Assembly: GCA_002716355.1 (NCBI GenBank) | Contig: PBAU01000003.1 | Span: 303,146-367,145 of the forward strand | Direction: 5' to 3' | DNA: 64,000 nucleotides | From: a bacterium | GTDB taxonomy: Bacteria > UBP7 > UBA6624 | Shown: positions 1,261 to 31,054 of the stretch, piece after piece | Position numbering within the stretch: the stretch's first letter is position 1 | Layout of the letters: every line of letters begins with the position of its first letter | The notes under the pieces: model-generated | What the model saw: the letters and a program-made list of their open reading frames with translations, nothing else | Database searches by the model: none | What the model was told of the DNA's origin: nothing | Program-made: the position numbers and the translations under genes

Positions 1261-2152
1261 AATGCCCTCCTTCGCTTAGGTATTTTATTATTGCCGCTCT
1301 TCCATACAAGCCCCAATTTACCTGATCAAAAATCAAGGATCTTTCATGCTTCAAAAGATCTGAAGATATATCAACACCAGGCATAACAGGACCTGGAGCC
1401 ATCAGATACTGATTTTCATTTAAAGACTTTACTGTAATATCAGAATAAGATTTTAAAATTTCAGAATCTCCAGGATCCCATCTTTCAGACTGAGGTCTCA
1501 AAACATATAAAACATCAGAATGATTTTGTGCCTCCTGAAGAGTTTTAAAAGAATTTAATTTGCTTTCATAATTTGATGTTGGCAATAAAGACAAATCAAC
1601 ACCTAAAGATGGCCATAAGTTAATCAAAGAATGAGCTACTCTGCTATGCTCAACATCCCCAATAATTGTTATTTTCTTACCATTTAAACCTATTGAATTC
1701 ATTAAACAGAAAGTATCTCCAACCACTTGTGTTGGATGTTCACCTTTACCATCTCCTGCATTAACTATCCACATGTCGATATCGTTTAAAGCTTTAAGCT
1801 TAGATGGCAAAGATTCTTGAGATGATCTTAGAACAATACCATCCAATTCTAAAGAGTTTAAATTCAAGACAGTTTCTTCTAAAGATTCACCTTTGGTCAA
1901 AGAAGAGTTTTTAATATTGAAATCAATTGCCCTGCCACCCAATGCAAAAATCGCTTCATTAAAAGATGTTTTTGTTCTTGTTGACGGTTCTTGAAATATC
2001 AATGCTACAGTACCAACAGAATGATCGGATTTCAAACCCCGTAACAATTTGTTTTTACCAGTATTCTTTAGGTGTAAAGCCAAAGAAAATAAAAAATCTA
2101 ATTTATCCTTATCTAAATCTTTAGAACTTACTAAACCTCTCAAATCAACCAA
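1253..2152 (-). CDS. pyrB: Aspartate carbamoyltransferase catalytic subunit
   Basis: The enzyme joins carbamoyl phosphate to aspartate, the committed step of pyrimidine synthesis, using the product of the next gene's complex. The 299-residue chain carries the carbamoyl-phosphate loop PSTRTKTSF in the first third, the HPTQ motif near the middle, and [12 protein letters not shown] toward the C terminus, which is the signature of ATCase rather than ornithine carbamoyltransferase. It overlaps hppA by 8 bases upstream and carA by 8 bases downstream. No regulatory subunit pyrI is seen beside it, so it probably works as a simple catalytic trimer, or with a partner encoded elsewhere. Confidence 0.95.
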
Positions 2153-4184
2153 TAAAAGGAGCTATAACCAAACTTACAACTGCCATTAACTTCAATAAAA
2201 TATTCAAACTTGGACCCGCAGTATCCTTAAAGGGATCTCCAACGGTATCACCGACAACAGCAGCCTTGTGAGCTTCTGAACCTTTTCCTCCATGTGCACC
2301 TTTTTCTATATATTTTTTTGCATTATCCCAAGCTCCACCTGAATTAGCCATAAATATAGCCATCATCACACCACTGGTTAAAGAACCAGCAAGTAATCCT
2401 CCTAACATTTCAGCTCCTCCAAGTTTTCCAACAAGAATTGGAGACAATATAGCAAGCAAGCCTGGGGCAACCATTTGCCTTAAAGCTCCTTGTGTTGAAA
2501 TATCAACACAACTAGCATAATCTGCTTGAGCTTCTCCTTTTAGCAACCCTGGAATTTCTTTAAATTGTCTTCTAACCTCTTCTACCATGTCGTATGCAGC
2601 TTTACCCACAGCTGTCATAGCCATTGAGGAAAACAAAAATGGCAACATTCCACCAAGAAGCATTCCTGCTAATGTTTGTGGGTTTGCAACATCCAAAACA
2701 TTCAATTTTGCAGCAGCCATAAAGCCTGCGAACAATGCTAAACTTGTCAATGCAGCAGAACCTATCGCAAAACCTTTCCCTACAGCAGCAGTCGTGTTTC
2801 CAACAGCATCTAATTTGTCAGTTCTTTCTCTAACCTCTTTTGGTAAACCAGCCATTTCTGCTATACCTCCAGCATTATCAGCTATAGGCCCATAAGCATC
2901 TACAGCTAGTTGGATACCAAGTGTTGCAAGCATACCAACAGCAGCTATAGCAATTCCATATAATCCCATCAATGAATTAGCTGTTATTATTCCTGCGCAT
3001 ATTGCAATCACTGGATATGCTGTACTAACCATACCAACAGATAAACCTGAGATTATATTTGTTGCACTTCCGGTTAAAGAATCTTTTGCAATTCCTTGGG
3101 AAGGTTTTGTTTCATCACTTGTGTAATACTCAGTTAATTTTCCAACAGCTATACCTACGGCTAAACCAGAAACAACTGTCCAAAATATATTTTGACCATC
3201 ATTTGTTGGAATCCATTTATGTGTTAAAAAGTAAGAGCTAGCAATAAATAAAATACCGGCAGTCATGGAACCTTTATCTAAAGCATGTTGAGGATTTCCA
3301 CCCTCTTCTGTTTTAACCATGAATGTTCCAATAACGCTACAAATAATACCTATTGAAGCAAATGCCAATGGCAGCATGACATGACCTAAAGTGTAATTTT
3401 GAATACCAAAAGCAAGAATCATAGCACCTATGATCGCACCTACATAAGATTCAAAAAGATCGGCTCCCATTCCAGCAACATCTCCAACATTGTCTCCAAC
3501 ATTGTCGGCAATAGTTGCAGGGTTTCTAGGATCATCTTCTGGGATATCCATTTCAACCTTTCCAACCAAATCAGCACCTACATCAGCAGCTTTTGTATAA
3601 ATCCCACCGCCAACTCTTGCAAATAAAGCAATTGAAGAAGCCCCTAACGAAAAGCCAATTAATATATTTACAGCTTGCTGTATATCACCTGAATAAACGC
3701 CTTTGAGCCAGCCGTAAAGAACTGCAATTCCAAATAATGCTATACCAACAACATTCATCCCCATAACAGATCCACCAGAAAAAGCAACTGAAAGAGCTTT
3801 ATTTAAACCCTTTTGAGCAGAATAAGCTGTCCTGTAATTAGCGTCAGTAGCAACTCTCATACCTAAATAACCAGCTATCGCAGAACAAAAAGCACCAAAA
3901 ACAAAAGGAATGACAATTTTCCAGTCACCTTCATTCAGACCATTGTATATAAACGCCAAGCTTGCACCAACAATTAAAACAAACCAAATAAGCAAGCTAT
4001 ATTCTCTTTTTAGGAACATCATTGCGCCATCTCTTATATGACCAGCGATTTCTTCCATTTTTTTATTATCAACTTTTACTGATTTAACTTTTTTAGACTG
4101 AGATAAAGCAAAACAAATTGCAAAAATACCAATATAAAGGGCATAAGCAGGTACATTATCTACATAGTTATTTATGATTTCCAT
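2145..4184 (-). CDS. hppA: Membrane-bound pyrophosphatase, K+-dependent subtype
   Basis: This 679-residue polytopic protein couples hydrolysis of pyrophosphate to pumping of H+ or Na+ across the cytoplasmic membrane. The substrate site is intact: [11 protein letters not shown] followed by [18 protein letters not shown] in the centre, and the mirrored acidic motif [12 protein letters not shown] later. In the segment [11 protein letters not shown] the position that separates the two subfamilies is Ala rather than Lys, which in this family marks the K+-dependent group; that group includes both Na+ and H+ pumps, so the ion is not settled. An AAAGGAG ribosome site lies about nine bases before the ATG. 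It overlaps pyrB downstream. Confidence 0.95.
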
Positions 4185-13926: not shown

Positions 13927-16900
13927 CTATTGGTAGCAAGAAGTTGGATTGCCTAATGAATCAGAACCATCAAATATACTGAAGAATATCTCCTCGCTGC
14001 TCTGGCCTCCCCTTCTGTTATCTGTCCAAAGTGTAAATATCTTATCTCCAAAAATCTCTATGGAAGGACTATGTTGAACATCTGGGCTCTGTATAGGGTC
14101 GCCAATTGAATAATCAGAAAGCTGCCATATTGGATCCATATTATCAGTACAGCCAAGAGTAACTCTTTCAGTTGAGTTAACTGCTGTGTCTGCCCAAGAT
14201 ATAGCGAATATGTCATCAGAAATATCAGCACTTACTCTCAAATAGAGAGGAGAAGCGCCTGAACCGCTATTGTTTACCTGAGAAGCACCTGACCAATTCC
14301 TACCTCTGTCTGTTGTTTTCTTGGTTAATGTTTGGTTAGCTGTACTAAACGCAACAAACATATCTGGAGAAGCTGTATTTGAAGTTTTTGAAACATCCGC
14401 TAAACTCGGATAAAGACCTGTATTAATTGTTGTAACATTCCTACAAACACCAGTAAGTGCATCTGAACTACACGCAGCAGAATCAATAGCAACACCAAAA
14501 CCAAATGAATCAAGATTAGCAATATTAGTACCACCTTGAGTGCTGCCTACAAATTGATCTTCATAATTCATATTAAACCAACCACCATACTGGCTAGTAG
14601 CACCCTTGATAGCAGGATCATCTGAAGTGTGAACAAACCTATTGAACATAACAGTGTGTTCAGGGTTGTTTGGTGGACTTGAGTCAAAGAATAATGAATA
14701 TTGTCCGAAAGGTTCATTATCAGATTGGCCAACAACAGTTGAATCAGGCCTCTGGTCCTCAGAATCAATCACTGACCATGCAGCCCATTGTCCAAGAGCT
14801 GAAGCATGGAAGTCATTCTGTGTATCTCCAACAGTTCCAACAGAACCACCACTTGAAAGAATATTTCCTGACTGTGAATGCCTTGTTGGAATCTGAAGGT
14901 TACCAATATAACCATCAGTAACAACAGTAAATGTTTTCAGTTCCTCAGTTCCAGTAAGCGTGTTATCCGTATTCCTTATAAAGGTTTCACCAACTGGCAT
15001 TGGCTGGAAAAGAGCTCCACTCCAATTAACATAAACTCTAGAAAGATCTCCATCTAAGCCTTGGAAGCTAGTTGGAATATCAATCACATCACAAACACTT
15101 CCCTGAACAAACACCTGACCACCTGCAAATACCTCTACAGGCTGTCCAATATTGTACATAGCAGCATCTTCATCCTTAAGCAAGAAAACACCGCCTTCTG
15201 CCACCCATTCTCCAGAAAGCTGATCTTGGATACCAAACTTACAATCACCACTTCCGATTGCAAGGTTTCCATTATCCCAGAAACTTTGAGGTAAATCAAG
15301 CAATCCTGTGTCACATGGATATGCTGCAAACATGTTGTCTTCATCGAAACATTGAGCACCAGATCCATCACTTTGGACTAGAGCTGTATGTGTTCCTTGA
15401 GTTGTTGCCCTGACTGCAAAATTCCATACACCTGCACTATCAATATCAAAATCAGAAACATCATCGGCTTGGTAATTAAAATCATTGATATTCAAAACAT
15501 CATCATCATTACCTCCCCAGTACCAAGATCTTGAATAATGGAAATCCCATTCAAAACCAGTATTGCTGTTGAAATCAGCTGACAATGTATCTCCGTCTGG
15601 ATCATAATGATCAGCAGAAAGGCTAATAGTAAATGGTGTTATTCCAAAAAGGTCACCATCTGTTTGCTGTATTATCCAAGCTACAGGCGGATTATTAACA
15701 GTCAAACCATTACCTACACCACCCAAATGTATAGGGCTGCCATTCGCACAAACATTTTCATCTAATGTTGATGCTGTAGCTCCACCATCAGAATATTCGA
15801 TACAAGACTCCAAACTGTAACCTTCATCTGAAGGATCTCCATCTGAAAGATAAAGACTTGGCCTGAATGTAACACCTTGCCCCGAAACAAGACACCTAAA
15901 TGAATCAGAACCATTTATGCCTTGATCCCCTAAGTCAGAATCACCATTAGCAACACCTATCCTGTGACCTTGATTCGCATTCCATATAGCCTTATTGTTA
16001 CCAAAACCTGTTTGATAAGGCCAAGAACCCGAATCATCACATCTCCATTGTGGAACCTGATCCTTATCGTCACAGAATGTTGTTCCATCAGGACATATAT
16101 CATCACCAATTCCAGAATAATTAGCAATACCATCTTTATCTATAGTTCCTGCACCATCACCAAACAGAATTGGGTCTCCGTCTGGATCCCATGAAGAACG
16201 TGCTGAATAATCAACATCCCTAGAACTGTCACCTGAGAATACAGGATCTTGTATTGTCATGTGTGCCAAAGGAATCCTATTTCTCCATACAGTCATATCA
16301 AATGATGAAATATCCTCTCTTGCTGAAGCACAACTTGCAATAGATTCTGTTTCACACACCCTTATAGAAATGTTTCTCTTAGCGGTATAGGTTGAAGAGT
16401 CGCCTGAATTTGGCTCATCTGTACCATTCCATAAAGCAGCACCTGAAACCTGGTCCCTACAAACATGCTCGAACCAAGCTGGCTCAGCAACTGGATCTGC
16501 GCTCAAAGTGGAACCACTCATGTCTACAGAGAAGTTATTTGGATCATTATCCCAATCACAATCAACCTGCACGAAAACATTTCTTCCATAAGGATCAAGA
16601 CTTCTTGATGCATCTAAATGAACAATGGAGTCAAAAAGAATATCTACAGGATTACAATTTGGCAATTCTGCAAAAGGACATCCTCCAGGGTTAACTCCTG
16701 CAAATGCATTCAAAGGCTTAGGGAACATGTATGTTCCATCTGCAAAAACATCTAACAAGTCTGCATCTGGAGATTTAAGGTCTACTAAACCTGGATCTGC
16801 ATCAGCTTCCCAGAAGTTAACCTGACTGTCGGCATCACTTGGGAATACAGCACTCTGAGGTCCTAATTGCTCTATAACTCTAACATTTACTGTGTCTGTG

Positions 16901-19900
16901 TCAGTAAGCCCCATTGTGTCTTCAACTGTTAATGTTACTATCCACATGTCTCCATTTGAATCATTATTCAAATCAGTCAAACCGTCTCTAACTTGAGGAT
17001 TGGCTTGATTATCGTCATAAGTGCATGTATGTGTTGATCCAACACCACCAGTTCCATTACCACAATCCCATGTGTATGTAAGAACTTGATCATCAGGATC
17101 AATTGAATTATGAGCTGATAAATCAACAGAGAACTGTCCATTGAAATTAGGTGCTGAACTTATTGAAACATCAAAAGTTCCAACCCAGTTCAAATGATCT
17201 TCAATCCAGGGATTTGTTGGATTGGTATTCGGATCCCAATTCTCAGGACCTGAAATAGCAGCTCTTGGAGCTCTATTCAACATGTTTCTAACAGGAATTT
17301 GACTCAAAGAGGTTGAGCCAGGAAGACAGAAGTAATCCGAACATCCAGGAGAAACATGAGGATCATTTACTACAAGTTCGATTGGGCCAACACTGTATGG
17401 TATCAATGGAGTGTTGGAAGCCGCATAAGAACAAAGGTCATAAGTAAATGGACCGGGAGAGAATGGAGGACTTATGTTTGGAGCATTTGCATCTCCACAA
17501 TCCCATTCAAAAGTTGTAGACCAAGGAGGATTGCTTAATTGATTTTCTAAATCTATTGTTGAATTTCCGACTAAAACAATATTATTTGATGTCAACAAAT
17601 TATCCACAACAGGCAAGAAGTCAGTTTGAGGATCAACATAAAGAATAGGCATTGGTGTTGTATTTGTTGCCCTTGCAATATTATGGTTATCCTGTCCGGA
17701 CAAATCACCATCACTAACAACAAGAGATACAGCAGGTCTTCCTACTGTTTCAAATTCACAATCCTGAGCAGAAGCATTTCCTGCTGCAGTTCCATCACAC
17801 TCCCAAGAGTACTGCAAAGAATCACCATCAGGGTCCCAGGAAAGATAAAGAGGATCTTCACCTTGAGCCCTTGAATGCCAGCTAGTGACTCCTCCAACAG
17901 GAACAACCCAGTCAGTGTTTTCCTCATGGGCAACAACAATAGGAGCCCTGTTTTCCCAAATTTCAAATATCAAATACTCAATATCGATATTGTCATTCAT
18001 GTCAATAATTCCATTGGTTGAATAATCATCTCTTAAAGGTTCAGGGAAGGTGATGATGTCAGGACCAACAACACCACATGTGTCTATAGTGAAAGTTGAA
18101 GTCACTGAACCAGCTTCCTTAACTAACCCTTGCCTTCCTCTAACTAGATTCAGCTCAACATCAGCACAAGCTCCAGTATCAAGCTGTAACTGATTGTCTC
18201 CAGCTGTAGCAGCAGAACCGATATTCCCCTCACGAACCTCTTCAATTTGAGCACCGTCATCCACAAGGTATGCAGGAGACATGCCACCACCAAGAATACC
18301 TCCGTCAACTCTTACAGTATCCAAAAGGCTGATAAGCCTTGCATTGTCTCCAGCCTGAACGGTTTCAAGCAATGGGTCAGCAAATTCAAGAACATCTGGA
18401 CTGCCAGGGGTACAGTTGGTAACTGTTGTTGTTGTAGGTCCAGCACCAAACATATTGTCATCCTCAATACGTATTGGGTTCCCTATACGGAACTGTTGAG
18501 CAACACATTCTCCGTCCGGAATGTCAACACTTGTTGAATTTATTTGAGCATTCGAAACTACATCTGTTATAGGGTCTGTTGGATCACATCCACCAACCTC
18601 AACAGTCCTGTCGTCTGAATCCCCAATCTGGTTCGAAACTCTTACGCCAACATTGTCAGCAAAAACCCCTGTGGCACAAACCCCATCTGCAACTATTACA
18701 TAATCTGTAAATTCAATATGATCCCTAATCAAGGGTTCAACAGAAAAACCACATCCGCCAACAGTTCCATTATCACAAACTGAATACTCAACGATCTCGA
18801 AAACAGGACCGCCAACAGGGTTTGGGAAACTACACGTCCCCACAGCAAAATCAAATATCTGACCTGCACCACAATCAATTCGATATTCAAGAGAATCATT
18901 ATCAGGATCCCATGAATTATTCAAATCTATCTCAACATTATGGGTTGTTGAACTTGATCCAACAGTCAAAGAACCTGTGTAATCAGCAAGTGCAACTGGC
19001 CTTTGCTGGCCAGGTCCTGCTTCATCAACATAAACAACAACTGTTCTCACATCTTCAGAAGGGAAACTTTCATCATCAAGGACCTTTACAGTAAGAAGGT
19101 TTGCTCCAGTAACCATTCCATCTATTGCAACAGAACAGCTACCAGACTCTTGAGTCATTCCTGGGTTATCAAAAGCAAGATTATGCACCCAGTTACAGTC
19201 AATTTCTCTAGAGGAGATTCCGGAACCAGCACTCATGTTTGTATCAGCATCTAATGAAAGAGCTGTATTCCATGGAACTGGCTGTTGTGAATCATGGTTG
19301 TAATAAACACCTGTAACTTTTATACTTCCCATTGGATCTTGGTTCATGTCAGAAACATAAACATCTAAATTCACGGTATGGGAACGAACAGAATCAGTAG
19401 GCAATATTGTGTTTGCATCTCCTGAATCATCTCTCAAGCCACCATCGTCTGTAACTGTCAAAGTCACTGTTTTGACACCTGTTCCATCATTCACCTCATC
19501 ATAAGAACATCTCCATGTAGGATCAGAAGTTCCACTCCATTCAGAAAGTGTTCCTCCGTTACAAGTTGGCTGATATTCATTAATGTTTCCATCAAGATCG
19601 TCTGATCTTGAACCATCAAAATCTACAAAATATGAACCGGAAGGATCGTATGTTCCAAGAGAGCCGCTCGCACCGCTTATGAAGAAATAAGCCTGCGGCT
19701 GCCTGTTTTTCAAGCTCGTATCACATGGCGTTCCATCATTTGGACAATCTCCAACATGTATAACTGTAGTGATGACTGTAGAAAGACCTCCATCAGCATC
19801 TGTAATCCTTAAACCCACAGTGTAGTCTTTTTCTTCTGAGAAAGTTACATTTTCGCTTTCGTTTGTTGAATCAACCGTAAACACACCACCAAGAACATCA

Positions 19901-22900
19901 AAATCCCATTCATAAGTACAACCATCACAATCTGTTGGGTCTGTCCATGTCGCATCATCTGTATCAATAGCTACAGCACTGAAATCAACGCTCAAAGGAG
20001 CAAAACCAGCAAGGAAAGGACTTGCAGAAATAGCACCCTGTGGTGCTTCATTCTCATTCGGCATGACTCTATATGTCACAGCATGAATATTTGTTCCACC
20101 AAGATTATCAGTTGCTCTCAAAGCAATTGTTCCTTCTCTGTAATTAGCACCAGGAACATCATTTCCGAATGTTAAATCAACTGATGAATTTAATTCATTT
20201 CCGCTTACATCAACATTAAATGTTATGCCGTCATAATTAAGATCCCAATCCCAAGCAACAACCTCACCATCAGCATCAACTGACCTTCTTCCATCAAGAT
20301 AGACTGATGCATTTCCAACATTGTCATATTCTGAAACATTACGTACAGAATCAACAAAAGGCTTGACTATCGCAACAGCCTGCGGAACACTGTTTCCAGC
20401 ATTGATGTCATGCTGGTAGCCATCTGAACTTGGATCATCACCATAACCAACGGAAATAGTCAAGCTTCTTGAACCTGTCTCTCCATTATTATCAATAAGG
20501 TCATAGGTCACAACATAATCACCAACTTCCCTGAAGGTACATTTTCCAGTACCATCACCATTGTCGCTTAGTATCGGCTCACTACCTGCACTAGCAATTG
20601 AACTGGAATCACAATCCAAACTTCCATTTCCAAAGTTGACTATTTCATCCTCTCTGTCAAAAGAAGCTTTTGCATCCAAGCAAACACTGAAAGAAGGTGT
20701 TGCAAGATTATGGTCAAGAACACCTGCAGAAGCCATAGGACAAGATTCGTTTTGGTCTTCTCTTAACCTCAAAAGAACCACTGGTGCTTGGTTCTGGTAG
20801 TCATCCACGTAGAGGTAACTCCAAATAATTGGTGAACATTCACCTGGGTTTGGCCCACCGCTACATGCTCTCATTCCAACTCTAGTTCTGTTGTCTCCTG
20901 CATCAAAAACAGAATTTGAATAATTCAAATCAACAGCACAATTTGTACCAGCTGCAGGATTAACGTTTGGATTACAGTTAACTGTATGGTCTGGAGTCCA
21001 ACTTGAAGAAGATCCATCCCAATCCTGAACAAATTCACATGTGAAGCTTGTACCATCAGGATCATAAGAACCCCTGTTGTTATCTCCAAAAGCGCTTACT
21101 CTCCATGCACATTGAGCTTCAACTGCAAGGTTGCCTGTTTCATCTAGCTCACCAACAGCCCTATTACTGTTTGAAGCATTTCTAAGCCTCATGACAGAAA
21201 CAGGTGGGCGATCCTGATTGTTATTGACAGGAACCCATATCACACCACAACCAACAGCCCCATCATTATCAGTGTACCTTGCACCAACTCTCTTTAATCC
21301 TGTTGTGGCATATGAATAATTAGTGAATGTATTGGTTCCAGGACTGGTCCAATCATTGTCATTTTCACAGCTATTTGCTTCAACAAAATTAGAATTTCCA
21401 AAACCACCTGTCCTTGTGATGTTTGTGTCATAATTTGCATTCCACTCACAAACAGCAGGTTGAGGAGCAGAAAAACCACCGTCATCCTCGTAGTCACTAA
21501 CCCAACATTCCAATTCGGGACCAAATTCATTTGTTGCCATCCCTGTACTTATACTTCCTGAAAGATCTCTTATATGAACCTGAGGAGCATTGTTAACTCT
21601 CTGAGTGAAAGAGTTTCCATCAATCCAAGTTGCTCCTTGATCAGAACTCATCATATGGAACATTTTCGCACGACCGCTTGAAGCCTCAACAAAACTTAAA
21701 TGCCAGAAACCATCAAAAGGACCTCCTGTTGCAGGCTCTATAGTTAATGAAGGTTGAGTCTGCGCACCTTGTCCAGATGCTCTCAAATCACTGTTTGCCA
21801 AGCCAGGCATAGAGTTTCTTGAAGACCAAGTAGCACCTGCATCTATACTTTCAACCCAATAAATATCTAAGTCACCAGTTGCATCATCGCCAAAGAAAAC
21901 GATAATGTGATCACTATTTACAGGATCTATCACCATATTTGGAGTCTCAGAATTACTGGAACATACTGGAGTGCCTTGCTGGTGAGATATATTTTGAGCC
22001 TCCTCCCAACTGACGTTTCCATTAAGATAAGCACCCTTTCTATACCTTATTTGAGTCTGACCTCCAAGGCACTCTTCTAATGAAGATGACATCCAAATTG
22101 TATGTAGCACACCTTCATCCGGGCCTGTTTGAGTGAAATGTATATTATGCTGTCCTTGAGACCAACTGCTGTCAGTTCCTTCAGCTGGAAGGAAAGGATA
22201 AGCATCAAATTCACCAATATCACCACTGATCATCTCATCGTTCCCAACAGTCAAAGGGATTTCAGAATTGCTCTGCGGGTCCCCCTCTCTACAGAGTTTT
22301 GCATCCCATGATCCACTGTATACATTCAAACACATCAGATTACTTGTTGCGCCTTCCTCATCTACAACTCGAACAGCGATTCTGTAATCACTACCAAAAT
22401 TCATCTGAGTCCCCAATCCATCTATACCATTTGTTGAATTAAGCTCCCATTGGTAGAAGTTCTGTTCAGTTGAGTTTGCACATATGTTTGCAGGATCGTT
22501 TACAGGTATGAAATTAGGATCTGCAACATCAATATTTGCAACATCCGACTCTATAACATCAGCAAAGAAAGAAACACCGTCGTAATCAAGATCCCATTCA
22601 AGAGTTTGAAGGGCATCATCATCACAGACACCTACACCAAAACCAATAAATTTACCTGGTGCAGGATTGAAGAACTCTGTTGGGTTTGTCCCAATAGGGT
22701 TCAAAACGGTGAAATCATCCAAACCTGCAGTAAAGGCACCCTGTTCACATGTGGCACAATTGGCAGGATCTTCATCAACACCATAAACCCATATCTTAGG
22801 AACCTCTGGAGCCTGATTAACCTGTACCCTAACAACCTCAGAATCAGTTGATATACCATCAGTTACAGTTAATGTCGCATCATAGAAAGGAGCATTTGCT

Positions 22901-25900
22901 GTATATGTATGTATATATGTTGAATTCAAAGTTGTTAAATCATTAGTCCCATCTGTATCAAAATCCCATTGATACTGAAGAGCATCAGGTCCTGAATCCA
23001 AATCAAAACTAGATGAAGCATCAAATTCAACTCTCAAGTTAGTTGGAGTGTCATCGAGTATCTCAAAAGAAAGATTTGCTGAAGGCGCAACGTTGTTAAT
23101 AACGCCGACAGAGGCACTTGCAGAATCACAAAGCTGTGCTTCAGGGAAATCAAGAATGCCTGGATAACGACATGTTCCATCAACAGCAACAACTCTAATT
23201 CTGAAATCAGCCTCACCAGTCCATAGATCAACACCATTCAGCTCTGCAGAAGGAGCAGTCCAAACAATTCCACTTACCCCTGATTTTGCCCAAATCCCAT
23301 CGTTGCTTTCAATACTTGCAGAAGGACCATAAGAACCCCATTGCCTATGTTCAAGAATGGCATTGTTGCTTGTAAGGTAATTATTAGTCAACGTGTCAGC
23401 CAAAGTAATCGTTGCAACAAAATTACCAAAATTACCTGATTCAGTACATTCAACTATCGTTGTATCAAAACCAGTTGGATCACTACTGTCACTAATCCTT
23501 ATAGGCCTATACTGATTATGACGGTTACATGAACCTTGAACGGAAACAGTACTACTTGTTGAAAAAGCATCAGTCGTCAGGTAAGCTCTGGTGTTTGCAT
23601 TATTGTTGGAACCTTTCCAATCAGTCCAATAGTATTTAGTTGTACCACATGGGTCTGTCCATGTAGGGGCACAATTACCTGGACCGTCAGCATCCTCAAT
23701 AGAAACAGAAACAGTTGTTTTTGAAGCATCTGAAGCGGCACTATTTAGAGGTGATTCAAATATTGGATCATCAGCAATGCTTGGTCCAGAAGTTATCTGA
23801 GGGGGATCATTAACATTTGGAGAACTATAAACAACCGTAACAATTGACTCATCCGAACTCTCACAATCATCACTAGAGTCACTAGGAGTAAAGACACCAC
23901 CTAAATCACATCCTAAGATTTGGTATTGATCATTTGTATCAAGAGTCAAAAACCTATCTAGGCCCAGAGTCCCTGCCTGAACATCAACCGAAGTTATTTG
24001 GGCTCTCTGGTAACATCCATCTGTATTCCAGTCTGGTTCAGCGTAAGGCGAACATGATTCACTTGAATCAGGGAAAACAACCACAAAGTGACCCCAGTCA
24101 CACAAAGGATTTCCGACAACATTACTGCTGCCACAAATTCTGCTGAAATCTTGAAGAACATCAGTATCTTCAATTACATTTTTGCTTGTACCATCACCAT
24201 TGTCAAGGAATCCCTGCATTGCTATCTGATCAGCGACGGAAACCGAAATAGGCATTGCGCACCTTATGCTCACCCTTGCATTATTTGAAATAGCATAATC
24301 CTCATTAAGAGTTGTTGATATTTCAAGATTTCCAGCAGGAGCATTAAGAGGATCAGGATCAGCTGTAATCGACAGTATGAAAGTGTCTGTATATTCTGTT
24401 CCAGCATCGTCGCTAAGCCTAATAGGTATATTTGTATTTGGATTTACTCCACCAAAAGCCAATATATTATCTACTCTTATACAGGTTGTTCCTGCAGCAG
24501 CTCCACCACATTGACCCTGTCCGAAACTAAAGCCAACACTGGAAATTGCTGCTGATGAATTAACAGTATCCAAAACCTTCAAAATTGAATTATCAATATT
24601 GAAATCTGGATTCCTAACAACGCTATTTGAAAGAATTACACCATTACCACCATTGTCAACTAAAGAATTGAAGCCGGCATCCGGACTCCATGACCAATTA
24701 TCAGAACCCCAAAGATTGACAGAGTCGGTAACACAGCTTTGAGGGGTAGCATTAGGATTGTTAACATCAAGAGACCACCAGTATCTAATTATGTCTGAAT
24801 TGGAGTCATCTGCACTTACAGTAACCTGTCTTGTGGAGCCAGTTGTTTCACTAACCTCCATCGTAATTTGAGCTTGAGGGTTGCTTCCTGTTATAACAGG
24901 AATTGAGTTCTTAAACGCAGGGCCTCCTCCACCCCCACCGCTTGAAGTACCACTGTCTGATACAGTAATAAGCCAAGTAGTGCTTCCGACTCCACCAAAA
25001 ATATCTTGAGCTGTAACAGTAATTTCATATTGATCACTTGTTAACTGAACATCTCTATCAGTCAAAGGGCGGAATCGACCACAAAAAACTGGTTGTTGTC
25101 CAGGTTGATTAGTACAAAGAAGACCACTTGAAGGATCGTTTGAAACATCTCCCACCCTGCTATTTGAAGGCATTCCAATTTCGATACTGCCTTCGAAAGG
25201 AAGATTTTCACCTATCAAGTCAACATTCCAGCTAACCAAACTTATGTTTTCTGATTCAGAAACATTTCCATTCTGGAATTCAGCAGCCAGCCAAACGTAA
25301 TTATTGTCATTAGAACCTCCAGAACCATCATCACTGATGTCATCAGAATTAAAAGAGCCGCCAGAAGAAGCGCCTGGTTCTATGATTTCACTATTTCTAG
25401 GATCGTTTTTCTCATCCTCCCATTCAAAAGCAGTTACTGTTGCAGGGCTATTAAATTCAGCTACATAATTTACAGTCAAATTAATATCTGACTCAGTGTA
25501 ACCACCTTTATCATCTGACATACGTACTCTTAAAGTTACAGGAATATCTGTTTGTGCACATCCTGCATCCTCGTCAAGATTTGGAGCATGCCAAACGGCA
25601 TGGCTGTAATACTGATTTGATATTATTTGACCTTCTTCATCCTGTAAATTTGTGGCTGGAGTTAAAGGATAAAAAGGTTCTAATAAAACTTGACCCTCAT
25701 TTGTTGTTACAGTTCCACGACATTGACTTGGGCTAACCTGAGTCCATTCAACAACAACATTATCATCAGCATCAGATTCTTGGAACTCAACATAAAGATC
25801 TATAACGGAGTGATCAATCGATGTAGTCGAATCTGTAACAAAAGAACACGTTTCATCATTTTCTTCAGTACATCTTGAATCAATACTTCCAACCTGAACC

Positions 25901-26310
25901 TTGTTCCCCTCTTCATCCAGAATGTATGCAAACGGAGCAACTGTAACTTCTGGACCTTGATTAATTCTTAAAACAAGACGTGTGTAACCTTTTTTACCTC
26001 TTTCATCCCTAACCTCAAACTCAAGTTCGACAGTTGTACCAATTACTGGAATGCCGAAAAGAGTCCCTGTTCCTGGATCAAACTCCAAACCATTAGGGAG
26101 CTGTTCTTGATTCAATAAAGAAATATCAAGATCACCACTACCGCCATTAGCCTGCAGAACCATACTGTAAGATTCATCAACCTGTCCAGGTTCTAAAGCA
26201 CCTGTTGTAAAAGCAGGCGATCCAACCTCTTGACTGTCTCCACCACTACAGGCAGAAAATATGATTGAGAAAAGAATTACACAAAATGTTGATTTAATGA
26301 ATTTTTTCAT
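13927..26310 (-). CDS. Giant multidomain PKD/Ig-like and BNR-like lipoprotein
   Basis: The product is about 4,127 residues. I place the start at 26310, not ten codons upstream, because GGAGG lies seven bases before this ATG and MKKFIKSTFCVILFSIIFSAC is a lipoprotein signal with Cys21 followed by Ser, which would favour the outer membrane. Residues 45-115 form a putative Ig (He_PIG-like) domain. Many PKD-like modules follow, with DASxSxDPDxD and YxWDFDxDG patterns, for example near 1075-1155, 1977-2033, 2088-2183, 3020-3110 and 3553-3590. Asp-box motifs at about 1490 (SIDAGATW), 1557 (SSDQGATW) and 4000 (TTDRGRNW) mark two BNR/sialidase-like propeller blocks. Three cysteine-pair repeats occupy about 2530-2770. 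It is Asp/Asn/Gly-rich and poor in Lys, with DNGDGT-type calcium sites. Role unknown; cell-surface binding or glycan contact is inferred. Confidence 0.9.
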   Translation of the reverse strand: MKKFIKSTFCVILFSIIFSACSGGDSQEVGSPAFTTGALEPGQVDESYSMVLQANGGSGDLDISLLNQEQLPNGLEFDPGTGTLFGIPVIGTTVELEFEVRDERGKKGYTRLVLRINQGPEVTVAPFAYILDEEGNKVQVGSIDSRCTEENDETCSFVTDSTTSIDHSVIDLYVEFQESDADDNVVVEWTQVSPSQCRGTVTTNEGQVLLEPFYPLTPATNLQDEEGQIISNQYYSHAVWHAPNLDEDAGCAQTDIPVTLRVRMSDDKGGYTESDINLTVNYVAEFNSPATVTAFEWEDEKNDPRNSEIIEPGASSGGSFNSDDISDDGSGGSNDNNYVWLAAEFQNGNVSESENISLVSWNVDLIGENLPFEGSIEIGMPSNSRVGDVSNDPSSGLLCTNQPGQQPVFCGRFRPLTDRDVQLTSDQYEITVTAQDIFGGVGSTTWLITVSDSGTSSGGGGGGPAFKNSIPVITGSNPQAQITMEVSETTGSTRQVTVSADDSNSDIIRYWWSLDVNNPNATPQSCVTDSVNLWGSDNWSWSPDAGFNSLVDNGGNGVILSNSVVRNPDFNIDNSILKVLDTVNSSAAISSVGFSFGQGQCGGAAAGTTCIRVDNILAFGGVNPNTNIPIRLSDDAGTEYTDTFILSITADPDPLNAPAGNLEISTTLNEDYAISNNARVSIRCAMPISVSVADQIAMQGFLDNGDGTSKNVIEDTDVLQDFSRICGSSNVVGNPLCDWGHFVVVFPDSSESCSPYAEPDWNTDGCYQRAQITSVDVQAGTLGLDRFLTLDTNDQYQILGCDLGGVFTPSDSSDDCESSDESIVTVVYSSPNVNDPPQITSGPSIADDPIFESPLNSAASDASKTTVSVSIEDADGPGNCAPTWTDPCGTTKYYWTDWKGSNNNANTRAYLTTDAFSTSSTVSVQGSCNRHNQYRPIRISDSSDPTGFDTTIVECTESGNFGNFVATITLADTLTNNYLTSNNAILEHRQWGSYGPSASIESNDGIWAKSGVSGIVWTAPSAELNGVDLWTGEADFRIRVVAVDGTCRYPGILDFPEAQLCDSASASVGVINNVAPSANLSFEILDDTPTNLRVEFDASSSFDLDSGPDALQYQWDFDTDGTNDLTTLNSTYIHTYTANAPFYDATLTVTDGISTDSEVVRVQVNQAPEVPKIWVYGVDEDPANCATCEQGAFTAGLDDFTVLNPIGTNPTEFFNPAPGKFIGFGVGVCDDDALQTLEWDLDYDGVSFFADVIESDVANIDVADPNFIPVNDPANICANSTEQNFYQWELNSTNGIDGLGTQMNFGSDYRIAVRVVDEEGATSNLMCLNVYSGSWDAKLCREGDPQSNSEIPLTVGNDEMISGDIGEFDAYPFLPAEGTDSSWSQGQHNIHFTQTGPDEGVLHTIWMSSSLEECLGGQTQIRYRKGAYLNGNVSWEEAQNISHQQGTPVCSSNSETPNMVIDPVNSDHIIVFFGDDATGDLDIYWVESIDAGATWSSRNSMPGLANSDLRASGQGAQTQPSLTIEPATGGPFDGFWHLSFVEASSGRAKMFHMMSSDQGATWIDGNSFTQRVNNAPQVHIRDLSGSISTGMATNEFGPELECWVSDYEDDGGFSAPQPAVCEWNANYDTNITRTGGFGNSNFVEANSCENDNDWTSPGTNTFTNYSYATTGLKRVGARYTDNDGAVGCGVIWVPVNNNQDRPPVSVMRLRNASNSNRAVGELDETGNLAVEAQCAWRVSAFGDNNRGSYDPDGTSFTCEFVQDWDGSSSSWTPDHTVNCNPNVNPAAGTNCAVDLNYSNSVFDAGDNRTRVGMRACSGGPNPGECSPIIWSYLYVDDYQNQAPVVLLRLREDQNESCPMASAGVLDHNLATPSFSVCLDAKASFDREDEIVNFGNGSLDCDSSSIASAGSEPILSDNGDGTGKCTFREVGDYVVTYDLIDNNGETGSRSLTISVGYGDDPSSDGYQHDINAGNSVPQAVAIVKPFVDSVRNVSEYDNVGNASVYLDGRRSVDADGEVVAWDWDLNYDGITFNVDVSGNELNSSVDLTFGNDVPGANYREGTIALRATDNLGGTNIHAVTYRVMPNENEAPQGAISASPFLAGFAPLSVDFSAVAIDTDDATWTDPTDCDGCTYEWDFDVLGGVFTVDSTNESENVTFSEEKDYTVGLRITDADGGLSTVITTVIHVGDCPNDGTPCDTSLKNRQPQAYFFISGASGSLGTYDPSGSYFVDFDGSRSDDLDGNINEYQPTCNGGTLSEWSGTSDPTWRCSYDEVNDGTGVKTVTLTVTDDGGLRDDSGDANTILPTDSVRSHTVNLDVYVSDMNQDPMGSIKVTGVYYNHDSQQPVPWNTALSLDADTNMSAGSGISSREIDCNWVHNLAFDNPGMTQESGSCSVAIDGMVTGANLLTVKVLDDESFPSEDVRTVVVYVDEAGPGQQRPVALADYTGSLTVGSSSTTHNVEIDLNNSWDPDNDSLEYRIDCGAGQIFDFAVGTCSFPNPVGGPVFEIVEYSVCDNGTVGGCGFSVEPLIRDHIEFTDYVIVADGVCATGVFADNVGVRVSNQIGDSDDRTVEVGGCDPTDPITDVVSNAQINSTSVDIPDGECVAQQFRIGNPIRIEDDNMFGAGPTTTTVTNCTPGSPDVLEFADPLLETVQAGDNARLISLLDTVRVDGGILGGGMSPAYLVDDGAQIEEVREGNIGSAATAGDNQLQLDTGACADVELNLVRGRQGLVKEAGSVTSTFTIDTCGVVGPDIITFPEPLRDDYSTNGIIDMNDNIDIEYLIFEIWENRAPIVVAHEENTDWVVPVGGVTSWHSRAQGEDPLYLSWDPDGDSLQYSWECDGTAAGNASAQDCEFETVGRPAVSLVVSDGDLSGQDNHNIARATNTTPMPILYVDPQTDFLPVVDNLLTSNNIVLVGNSTIDLENQLSNPPWSTTFEWDCGDANAPNISPPFSPGPFTYDLCSYAASNTPLIPYSVGPIELVVNDPHVSPGCSDYFCLPGSTSLSQIPVRNMLNRAPRAAISGPENWDPNTNPTNPWIEDHLNWVGTFDVSISSAPNFNGQFSVDLSAHNSIDPDDQVLTYTWDCGNGTGGVGSTHTCTYDDNQANPQVRDGLTDLNNDSNGDMWIVTLTVEDTMGLTDTDTVNVRVIEQLGPQSAVFPSDADSQVNFWEADADPGLVDLKSPDADLLDVFADGTYMFPKPLNAFAGVNPGGCPFAELPNCNPVDILFDSIVHLDASRSLDPYGRNVFVQVDCDWDNDPNNFSVDMSGSTLSADPVAEPAWFEHVCRDQVSGAALWNGTDEPNSGDSSTYTAKRNISIRVCETESIASCASAREDISSFDMTVWRNRIPLAHMTIQDPVFSGDSSRDVDYSARSSWDPDGDPILFGDGAGTIDKDGIANYSGIGDDICPDGTTFCDDKDQVPQWRCDDSGSWPYQTGFGNNKAIWNANQGHRIGVANGDSDLGDQGINGSDSFRCLVSGQGVTFRPSLYLSDGDPSDEGYSLESCIEYSDGGATASTLDENVCANGSPIHLGGVGNGLTVNNPPVAWIIQQTDGDLFGITPFTISLSADHYDPDGDTLSADFNSNTGFEWDFHYSRSWYWGGNDDDVLNINDFNYQADDVSDFDIDSAGVWNFAVRATTQGTHTALVQSDGSGAQCFDEDNMFAAYPCDTGLLDLPQSFWDNGNLAIGSGDCKFGIQDQLSGEWVAEGGVFLLKDEDAAMYNIGQPVEVFAGGQVFVQGSVCDVIDIPTSFQGLDGDLSRVYVNWSGALFQPMPVGETFIRNTDNTLTGTEELKTFTVVTDGYIGNLQIPTRHSQSGNILSSGGSVGTVGDTQNDFHASALGQWAAWSVIDSEDQRPDSTVVGQSDNEPFGQYSLFFDSSPPNNPEHTVMFNRFVHTSDDPAIKGATSQYGGWFNMNYEDQFVGSTQGGTNIANLDSFGFGVAIDSAACSSDALTGVCRNVTTINTGLYPSLADVSKTSNTASPDMFVAFSTANQTLTKKTTDRGRNWSGASQVNNSGSGASPLYLRVSADISDDIFAISWADTAVNSTERVTLGCTDNMDPIWQLSDYSIGDPIQSPDVQHSPSIEIFGDKIFTLWTDNRRGGQSSEEIFFSIFDGSDSLGNPTSCYQ

Positions 26311-26447: not shown

Positions 26448-27617
26448 ATGACTAAAACAACCTTAACAGTAATAAAAGCAGACATAGGAGGTTTTGTAGG
26501 GCATTCTGCAATTCATCCAGATTTAATAGTAAAAGCAGAAGAGGAGCTTCAATCCTCAAAAGACAAAGGTCAAATTAAAGATTTTAGAGTTCTATGGGTA
26601 GGAGATGACATGGCCTTAGTAATGACACATGACAAAGGTGAAAACTCAAAAGAGATTCACAAGCTTGGTTGGGACACTTTTGTAGAAGGTACAAAGGTTG
26701 CAAAAAAACTAAAGCTTTATGGTGCAGGACAAGATCTTTTGTCTGAAGGATTTTCAGGAAACATCAAAGGGATGGGTCCTGGATGTGCTGAAATGGAATT
26801 TGAAGAAAGGACCAGTGAGCCTTTTATTGTTTTTCTTGCAGATAAAACTAGCCCTGGAGCATGGAACTTCCCCGCTTACAAAATGTTTGCGGATCCGTTT
26901 AACACTCCTGGTTTAGTTATTGATGAGAATATGCATGCTGGATTTGAATTTGACATAATGGATGTAAAAAATAACAAAATAATAACTTTAAAAGCCCCTG
27001 AAGAGTCATACAAGATACTTGCTTTTATAGGCGCTGTTGAAACATACGTGATAAAAAACATAAGAAGGAGAGGTGACAAAATGCCATCTGCGACAATGTC
27101 AACAGATAAACTTTCACTTCTGGCAGGTAAATACATTGGAAAAGATGACCCTGCAATGATTGTTAGATGTCAATCTGGTTTGCCAGCAGTTGGAGAAGTC
27201 ACAAATCCATTCGCTTTTCCACACTTGGTGCCTGGGTGGATGAGAGGATCTCACACTGGGCCAATGATGCCATGCTCTTTTGAAGATTCAAATCCAAGTA
27301 GATTTGATGGTCCACCAAGGGTAATAGGTGCTGGTTTTCAAATTGCTGAAGGCATGCTTGTAGGACCAAGGGATATGTTTAATGATCCTGGTTTTGATAA
27401 TGCTCGACAGAAAGCAAATGATATTGCTGATTACATGAGAATGCATGGACCATTTGAACCACATAGACTTCCACCAGACCAAATGGAATATACAACTTTA
27501 CCCAAGATACAAAAAGAAGTAAAACAAAGATGGATGGAATGCAGTGATGGGCCAAGTACTAAAGATTTAGCTGACCAACATGCCTACCAGGCAACAAAAG
27601 ATGATGAGCTTGAATAA
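26448..27617 (+). CDS. Fructose-1,6-bisphosphate aldolase/phosphatase (archaeal type, class V FBPase)
   Basis: This bifunctional enzyme joins the triose phosphates and removes a phosphate to give fructose 6-phosphate, driving gluconeogenesis in one direction. The 389-residue protein matches the archaeal/deep-bacterial family along its length: TVIKADIGGFVGHSAIHP at the start (Mg-binding Asp and His), LYGAGQDLLSEGFSGNIKGMGPG around residue 93, FADPFNTPGLVIDENMH near residue 147, and GPPRVIGAGFQIAEG with the metal-binding Asp of the adjacent segments later on. The start is fixed by GGAGG eight bases before the ATG. A TATAGAAT element at 26404-26411 could be part of its promoter. It is isolated from other glycolytic genes. 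Confidence 0.93.
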   Translation: MTKTTLTVIKADIGGFVGHSAIHPDLIVKAEEELQSSKDKGQIKDFRVLWVGDDMALVMTHDKGENSKEIHKLGWDTFVEGTKVAKKLKLYGAGQDLLSEGFSGNIKGMGPGCAEMEFEERTSEPFIVFLADKTSPGAWNFPAYKMFADPFNTPGLVIDENMHAGFEFDIMDVKNNKIITLKAPEESYKILAFIGAVETYVIKNIRRRGDKMPSATMSTDKLSLLAGKYIGKDDPAMIVRCQSGLPAVGEVTNPFAFPHLVPGWMRGSHTGPMMPCSFEDSNPSRFDGPPRVIGAGFQIAEGMLVGPRDMFNDPGFDNARQKANDIADYMRMHGPFEPHRLPPDQMEYTTLPKIQKEVKQRWMECSDGPSTKDLADQHAYQATKDDELE

Positions 27618-27622
27618 AAAAT

Positions 27623-27724
27623 TTGACTAAAAAATATTTAATAATAGTATTAGCTATCTTTGTCGCACTTTTGGCATTTGTCAAAACTGCCATATACTTT
27701 ATTTCGGTATCTTCAAGAGCATGA
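27623..27724 (+). CDS. Possible 33-residue single-span membrane microprotein
   Basis: A frame starting with TTG at 27623 encodes about 33 residues: a short KKY head, one hydrophobic helix (LIIVLAIFVALLAFV) and a short tail. Its TGA overlaps the ATG of the next gene as ATGA, the same coupling used widely in this window, and it fills an otherwise empty gap of 103 bases. There is no clear ribosome site, so the call is tentative. Confidence 0.4.
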   Translation: MTKKYLIIVLAIFVALLAFVKTAIYFISVSSRA

Positions 27725-28134
27725 AAAAAATATTTTTAACTATCTTGCTTGCCAGCATTACCTCATGCCTTGCAGAAAAAACAACAGTTGGGAAAATATG
27801 CACAAAAATTAAAACAAATCCTAATTTGGTTGAAGAATACAATAAAGGTAAAAAATTCAAACTTCCATTATTCTTCTTTGACCTAACATTTCTACCTGAA
27901 GGAAAACAACAATGGGTTGGAAAAGATCCGACTGGAAAAGCTTATGCAAGAGTCACCATGAGCAATAAAGAAGGTCAAAAAATAGGCCAAGAATGCATCA
28001 GCAGCTATGAAGCGAAGTGCACTTTTTATATCCAAGGTTTTTTTTCAGAATATCTAACAGAGGAAAAAGGGTATGGAAACAATTGTGAAATCAGGCTCGA
28101 AAAAGTAAAGGTTTTAAATAAGATAAAAAAATGA
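27721..28134 (+). CDS. Small lipoprotein of unknown function
   Basis: The 137-residue protein has a type II signal, MKKIFLTILLASITSC, with the lipidated Cys at residue 16. The mature part is mainly basic and contains three further cysteines (CTKI, ECISSYEAKC and NNCEI regions) that could form disulphides in the periplasm. No family is recognised. It follows the FBP aldolase/phosphatase in the same direction and ends in an ATGA overlap with a small membrane protein, so the two are likely translated together. Confidence 0.72.
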   Translation: MKKIFLTILLASITSCLAEKTTVGKICTKIKTNPNLVEEYNKGKKFKLPLFFFDLTFLPEGKQQWVGKDPTGKAYARVTMSNKEGQKIGQECISSYEAKCTFYIQGFFSEYLTEEKGYGNNCEIRLEKVKVLNKIKK

Positions 28135-29870: not shown

Positions 29871-30602
29871 ATGCTTTTTGACACACATTGCCATTTAGAC
29901 GCGAAACAATTCGAAAATAAAATAAATGAAGTTGTTGATAATGCGAAAAAAAACAATGTTAAAAAAATCTTAATACCTGCAATTAAGCCTGGATTGCCAA
30001 AGGTAAAAATAAAAAATGTATTTTTAGCAACAGGTTCCCACCCTTACCATTCAAATGAAACACTTAAAAATAAACAAAAAATTATTGATGGCTTAAAAGA
30101 TGCAGTTGCAATTGGTGAAACTGGTTTAGATTTTTTCAAATGCCCTATAGGAAAAAAAGTTCAAATTGAGTCTCTTGAGTTTCAATGTGAATTAGCAACT
30201 AAAAATAATATGCCAATTATTCTCCATGAAAGAGAAAGCTTTATTGAATTAATTGAAATTATTAAAAAATATCCTGGTATAACAGGTGTTTTCCATGCTT
30301 TTCATCACTCAGAAAAAGAATTAAAACAAATAATAGATCTAAATTTTTATGTTGGTTTAGGCGGAATGGTTACTTATAAAAGTAACGATGCACTTAGAAG
30401 TGCAATTAAAAAGGGGCCAATGGAAAGATTCATACTTGAAACTGACTCTCCCTACCTTCCTCCACAAAACAAAAGAGGGCAAGTTAACCAGCCTGCTAAT
30501 CTTCTCGACATTGCAAAACACATATCGTTAATAAAAAATAAAACTTTGGATGATATCTCCTTGATAACAACCGAAAATGCTAATAGACTATTCAAATTAT
30601 GA
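29871..30602 (+). CDS. tatD: TatD family metal-dependent hydrolase/DNase
   Basis: TatD-type enzymes are TIM-barrel metal hydrolases linked to DNA end trimming and tRNA or peptide quality control. The 243-residue chain has the metal site in order: DTHCHLD at residues 4-10, GETGLDFF near residue 82, the HERE segment near residue 119, VFHAFHHSE near residue 140, and ETDSPYLPP near residue 190. It is slightly shorter than the usual 260. It starts 31 bases from a divergent gene and its TGA overlaps the start of lspA. Confidence 0.93.
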   Translation: MLFDTHCHLDAKQFENKINEVVDNAKKNNVKKILIPAIKPGLPKVKIKNVFLATGSHPYHSNETLKNKQKIIDGLKDAVAIGETGLDFFKCPIGKKVQIESLEFQCELATKNNMPIILHERESFIELIEIIKKYPGITGVFHAFHHSEKELKQIIDLNFYVGLGGMVTYKSNDALRSAIKKGPMERFILETDSPYLPPQNKRGQVNQPANLLDIAKHISLIKNKTLDDISLITTENANRLFKL

Positions 30603-31054
30603 AAAAAATGTGGCTTTTATGTTTTACAACTTTTGTAATTGACACTTTAACAAAGCAATTTGCATGGAGACAATTCACCCCACATGGTATGAGCTACCCA
30701 TTCAAAGAGAATTCGGATTTTAATTTTGTTATTGTAAAAAATGAGGGCCTGATGCTTGGATTTCTTTCAGAAAATCAAGCGTTTGTTGTATTTGTAATGG
30801 CATTTGCTGTCTATAGCCTTTATAACTTCTTAACTGAAGAAGATTTTCTTAACAAAAAAACTTATTTGATACTTCCAGCAGGCTTGATATTGGGTGGTGC
30901 TTTAGGTAATTTGGTGGATAGGATGACTAGAGGTTTTGTTATAGATTTCATCTCAATAGGAGACTGGCCAGTTTTCAATATCGCTGATGCTGCTGTAGTA
31001 ACCGGAATAATACTAATGATTATTCCCGAAAATCTACGGAACAATAGAGGTTAA
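30599..31054 (+). CDS. lspA: Lipoprotein signal peptidase (signal peptidase II)
   Basis: LspA cleaves the signal peptide of prolipoproteins after diacylglycerol is attached; at least four predicted lipoproteins in this window would be substrates. The 151-residue protein has four membrane helices, the conserved NEGLMLGF segment, and the aspartyl protease pair in NLVDRM and FNIADAAVV. It overlaps tatD by four bases. Its last 21 bases overlap nuoM, which converges from the right with no terminator. Confidence 0.95.
   Translation: MKKMWLLCFTTFVIDTLTKQFAWRQFTPHGMSYPFKENSDFNFVIVKNEGLMLGFLSENQAFVVFVMAFAVYSLYNFLTEEDFLNKKTYLILPAGLILGGALGNLVDRMTRGFVIDFISIGDWPVFNIADAAVVTGIILMIIPENLRNNRG

Follow-up and report, generated by a model that had tools for sequence, protein, structure and literature searches.

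How is a bacterial lipoprotein of more than four thousand residues put together, and what could it do for the cell that carries it? The question is raised by a gene in the window analyzed here, a 64,000-nucleotide stretch of a 1.26-Mb incomplete assembly from the candidate phylum UBP7, whose nearest named relative in our genome scan is 'bacterium UBP7_UBA7824'. We propose that the giant is built by nested insertion: tailspike-type barrels would occupy loops within the rod domains, and one propeller of six blades would be parted between blades 3 and 4 by a rod about 2,430 residues long. This architecture, which is our finding, was not claimed in an earlier note on this DNA. The explanation as a whole, that of a chromosomal, vertically kept lipoprotein of UBP7 bacteria acting as a nested-insertion adhesin with a single split propeller, is one that we would trust and doubt in about equal measure.

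A single intact gene under purifying selection

13927..26310, minus strand: giant lipoprotein gene, 4,127 amino acids plus stop (from the open reading frame, its orthologues and dN/dS)

The gene is a single intact frame with its ATG at 26310, its stop codon at 13927-13929 and a GGAGG ribosome-binding site upstream of the ATG. Its product has a mass of about 442 kDa, a theoretical pI of 4.05 and 92 cysteines. The gene was found in all three UBP7 genomes examined. One orthologue, P0002 (locus L006), is full length, with 4,136 residues and 94% identity. The other, P0003 (locus L013, genome G001), is 45% identical and only 3,708 residues long because its contig ends within the N-terminus; for the same reason, the MAFFT alignment of P0003 with the window protein is meaningless over the first ~540 residues of the latter. 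Between the window and L006, dN/dS is 0.070 over 4,124 codons, below that of most neighbouring genes compared, and it stays between 0.045 and 0.105 in every 400-codon window of the gene. The earlier note had described a single gene of about 4,127 residues and had named a misassembly of several genes as what would refute it. Since the orthologues (94% and 45% identical) come from independent assemblies and dN/dS is as low as 0.07, the giant is neither a misassembly nor junk.

The order M24 peptidase, plsY, gpsA, giant, FBPase is identical here and in L006, and the layout of open reading frames on the gpsA side of L013 is consistent with it. The adjoining gene (26448-27617, plus strand) encodes a fructose-1,6-bisphosphatase of the FBPase_3 family (E 1.3e-174), a type best known from archaea and thermophiles. 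Beyond it, positions 27721-28134 (plus strand) encode a putative lipoprotein or secreted protein of 137 residues without Pfam match, with the signal 'MKKIFLTILLASITSC', which is kept beside the FBPase in L006. Searches among viral contigs, plasmids and phages, some of them with parts of the protein, returned no relative of the giant.

The remark in the earlier note that the coding DNA is less AT-rich than its neighbours is correct as to GC content (0.41 against about 0.35), but the composition is not unusual. GC3 (0.248) and four-fold GC (0.133) both lie within the range of the neighbours, the excess being located in codon positions 1 and 2, and codon use correlates at 0.90 with the remainder of the window, within the range of other genes. 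The excess thus comes from the content in Asp, Gly, Ser, Thr and Asn, and GC3 and codon use rule out foreign DNA. Separately, four-fold divergence from L006 is 0.134 within window positions 16840-20853 (residues ~1820-3157) and 0.239 outside, a difference reached by 9 of 1,000 permutations; this is only suggestive of a recombination tract at residues 1820-3157.

Lipid anchor and export

26248..26310, minus strand: lipoprotein signal peptide and acylated Cys21 (residues 1-21; from sequence, conserved in P0002)
30599..31054, plus strand: lspA, lipoprotein signal peptidase II, a separate gene whose product could process the giant

The protein begins with a signal peptide and lipobox, MKKFIKSTFCVILFSIIFSAC21, read from the sequence alone; the single N-terminal lipobox of the earlier note (IIFSA-C21) is thereby recovered, and it is conserved in P0002. 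The giant would be exported by Sec and cleaved by LspA, and Cys21 would carry its lipid anchor. The earlier note had found it unusual that no secretion system lies beside the gene. For a Sec/LspA lipoprotein there is nothing strange in this, and lspA itself is located 4.3 kb from the gene. Omp85 was found in two of the three UBP7 genomes, so that the cell is probably diderm, while LolA was looked for without success in all three, which are 62-87% complete. The anchored protein would probably reside in the outer membrane, and we infer that it is exposed at the surface.

A rod of PKD and Ig-like domains

25969..26184, minus strand: He_PIG Ig-like domain (43-114; Pfam, below cut-off)
22819..23091, minus strand: PKD domain 1074-1164, whose orthologue in the 45% relative has an extra barrel in a loop
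18766..20727, minus strand: PKD rod, first run (1862-2515)
16906..17889, minus strand: PKD rod, second run (2808-3135)

A Pfam domain scan over the protein, a check proposed in the earlier note, confirmed its PKD-like modules. PKD_4 scored 54 bits for a cut-off of 27 and PKD 35.6 for a cut-off of 23.5, with an E of 1.8e-14; there is also one Sde0182_C match. The Ig-like opener of the note does correspond to a He_PIG match at 43-114, but this match remains below the Pfam cut-off, as does the BNR_2 match discussed below. The mature chain is a rod of PKD/Ig-like domains, acidic and rich in cysteine.

PKD domains were also observed elsewhere. A secreted metalloprotease-like protein of ~977 residues with the motif HEFGHCAGFAH (L001 1-2871, minus strand; G000:C5 near 79804) carries several. 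In the last of them, 'YEWDFGDGDS' and 'CYTSPGVYAVAFDF' are set apart by an inserted stretch of ~110 residues that contains Cys; the style of nesting is the same as in the giant. A putative lipoprotein of 114 residues (L003 1375-1719, plus strand; G000:C2) consists of a single PKD-like domain.

A repeated barrel with the fold of tailspike insertion domains

24268..24507, minus strand: barrel module copy 1 (602-681; profile)
23350..23574, minus strand: copy 2 (913-987; profile)
18556..18726, minus strand: copy 3, short (2529-2585; missed by the first profile here, weak with it in the L006 orthologue)
18331..18555, minus strand: copy 4 (2586-2660; profile; first sequence of the AlphaFold alignment)
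18007..18216, minus strand: copy 5 (2699-2768; profile)

A module of about 75 residues with a Cys pair was spotted by eye and then searched by profile. The comparison of repeat number with relatives, which the earlier note had suggested, gave five copies here, five in L006 and seven in the 45% relative, with E values down to 1e-27. Within the three UBP7 genomes the module is confined to the giant gene; it was found in none of 287 other genomes searched, and it has no significant match in PDB sequences or PHROGs and no convincing one in Pfam.

Modelled by AlphaFold from 17 copies, the module forms a small beta-barrel (pLDDT 94.6, pTM 0.81). Its best counterpart is the Klebsiella K1 lyase (7w1c), with a VIA Z of 10.8 and an rmsd of 2.0 over 75 residues; we equate the matched residues 147-230 of this chain with the 'rider' barrel that is reported to protrude from the enzyme (PMC8822698). 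A tail-tube chain of phage Mystique follows with Z 8.9, and the LKA1 gp49 tailspike (4ru4) with Z 8.8. In the latter, residues 292-369 are matched, the published insertion domain spanning residues 284-370 (PMC5701251). Foldseek alone gave a weak match (E 0.016), and F/V-ATPase barrels also present in the fold list (Z ~5.5) were treated as a common arrangement. As modelled, the module is the insertion-domain fold of phage tailspikes. The barrels of the K1 lyase and of LKA1 gp49 are likewise inserted within another domain, but that host is a beta-helix and not a PKD domain, and the module of the giant differs by its Cys pair, its five to seven repeats and the lack of a convincing sequence match in PDB, PHROGs or Pfam, although a remote homology to known members may exist.

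The nesting itself is observed at one place. In the 45% relative, a whole barrel lies within the PKD domain orthologous to 1074-1164, between the WDF strand and the HTYT strand, whereas the window protein and L006 have no barrel there and the PKD sequence resumes on either side; this is one comparison, with no outgroup. Judged by eye, three copies stand in a row between the PKD domain at 2450-2515 and a strand-like 'FEIWENRAP' at 2782, which suggests that the other copies are likewise inserted in rod-domain loops. For another copy, at residues 203-273 of P0003, reading by eye gave no counterpart in the window protein. We also considered the barrel as a recently mobile DNA element. This is not supported, since non-orthologous copies are only ~19-30% identical to the first row at the protein level and the module is restricted to the giant gene.

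Two blocks of three Asp-box blades

22036..22116, minus strand: blade a (1399-1425), block 1, E 1.5e-3
21817..21942, minus strand: blade b (1457-1498), block 1, with SIDAGATW, E 2.4e-9
21625..21714, minus strand: blade c (1533-1562), block 1, with SSDQGATW, E 1.5e-4
14269..14334, minus strand: blade d (3993-4014), block 2, with TTDRGRNW, E 1.2e-3
14104..14241, minus strand: blade e (4024-4069), block 2, E 2.3e-3
13978..14067, minus strand: blade f (4082-4111), block 2, C-terminal, E 2.1e-4

Pfam reports a BNR_2 domain at 1430-1672 with an E of 9.5e-5, below the cut-off, and block 1 is the sole BNR_2 match in each of the three UBP7 genomes. The Asp-boxes SIDAGATW, SSDQGATW and TTDRGRNW stand at 1488, 1555 and 3999, respectively. 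The C-terminal block is reported by no Pfam family and is detected by profile-profile comparison. For this purpose, a blade profile made from 89 blades of Asp-box proteins of other genomes was compared with four stretches of the three-orthologue alignment, which yielded the six blades listed above (E values from the blade profile). No further blade with E < 0.05 was found in the rod (1720-3780) or the N-terminus (1-1341), that is over ~3,400 residues. When columns were shuffled (200 times per block), the shuffled scores always stayed below the observed ones, at all three ranks and for both blocks. The two separated BNR-like blocks of the earlier note, in mid-chain (1399-1562) and at the extreme C-terminus (3993-4111), are therefore real. 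Its suggestion of two propellers is not supported, only three blades being recognisable in each block. A direct hhalign comparison of the two blocks gave no match, each profile having only three rows. The single match of block 2 to PDB sequences was judged to be chance, and the AlphaFold model of residues 3540-4127, built with three orthologues, was not interpretable (pLDDT 29.7).

The simplest reading would be a single six-bladed propeller, split 3+3 by ~2,430 residues, whose last three blades would form the C-terminus of the giant. Among Asp-box proteins, type 2 corresponds to one propeller interrupted by an inserted domain, as in the Vibrio cholerae sialidase, and type 4 to two propellers from an interrupted series, as in yeast Vps10p; the types are hard to distinguish from sequence (PMC2716378), and we therefore only infer a single propeller. 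As in the giant, an insertion interrupts the Asp-box blades of the V. cholerae sialidase, with six blades in total (PMC2716378). The giant differs by its insertion, a ~2,430-residue PKD/barrel rod in place of a lectin-like domain, by having no R-I-P sialidase motif near its blades and by a closure that is predicted only. In the most far-reaching form of this reading, to which we give somewhat under half of our confidence, one propeller would be cut exactly in half by a rod containing tailspike-type barrels, and the surface protein would form a loop that the propeller closes by holding residue ~1,560 and the C-terminus together.

Could each block instead be a propeller of its own, of type 4, the first halfway along the chain and the second at its end, some of the blades having diverged beyond detection? 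Asp-box propellers are irregular and the motif is often missing from several blades (PMC2716378). The blades of block 2 are individually weak, and the ~185 unassigned residues ahead of them, which contain one match at E 0.068, could hide further blades. Block 1, however, is confined to ~235 residues flanked on both sides by PKD-like domains. Three or four blades could be accommodated there, but not a propeller of six or seven, and the fourth-best match in this block is noise (E 0.52). Since, in addition, exactly three blades are detected per block, we consider two propellers unlikely.

It is somewhat more doubtful still that both blocks have degenerated and persist as remnants of Asp-box blades within a generic adhesive rod, with the giant acting as a PKD/Ig-only spacer or matrix protein. 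Such decay would account for the position of block 2 below Pfam detection and for the loosely kept C-terminal Asp-box, which reads TTNRGRGW and SIDLGRSW in relatives. It is at odds with the purifying selection in the codon windows that hold the two blocks (dN/dS 0.055-0.062, like the remainder of the giant) and with their many invariant residues at 37-46% identity. Finally, we give least credit to a pairing of half-propellers between neighbouring molecules, as a swapped dimer or a surface lattice: judging from the blade counts, three blades by themselves would probably be unstable and each half would find its complement in this way, but closure within one molecule is simpler and has a precedent in the type 2 sialidase of V. 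cholerae (PMC2716378).

A candidate adhesin

An F/Y-R-I-P motif in the propeller is the signature of GH33 sialidases. This motif was not found in the blades, the sole R-I-P of the giant being at 3345, in the rod, which makes binding a likelier role than hydrolysis. The giant is predicted to be an adhesin rather than a sialidase, its propeller and barrels most likely binding glycans or particles. Glycan or particle binding, as put forward in the earlier note, is plausible, and the protein is likely an outer-membrane-anchored adhesin or glycan binder.

Giant lipoprotein adhesins are already known as a kind, and the present variant appears to be new. The giants of Vampirococcus lugosii (PMC8080830) and Giant1-5 of Apilactobacillus kunkeei (PMC12863079) are likewise multi-thousand-residue proteins of small genomes that have been read as adhesive, and PKD domains occur among those of Vampirococcus, as in the UBP7 giant. 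Unlike them, the UBP7 giant is a single gene with an N-terminal lipid anchor and Asp-box blades.

The barrel would place the insertion fold of phage tailspikes in the loop of a PKD domain on a bacterial surface protein, and its copy number varies between genera. If the two halves of the propeller do close, this would be an extreme case of domain insertion, in which the chain exits the propeller, runs through thousands of rod residues and returns to complete the fold. Such a protein would form a looped fibre on the surface and make it possible to test how distant two halves of a domain can be and still fold. UBP7, represented in this analysis by metagenome-assembled genomes only, also gains a conserved candidate adhesin.
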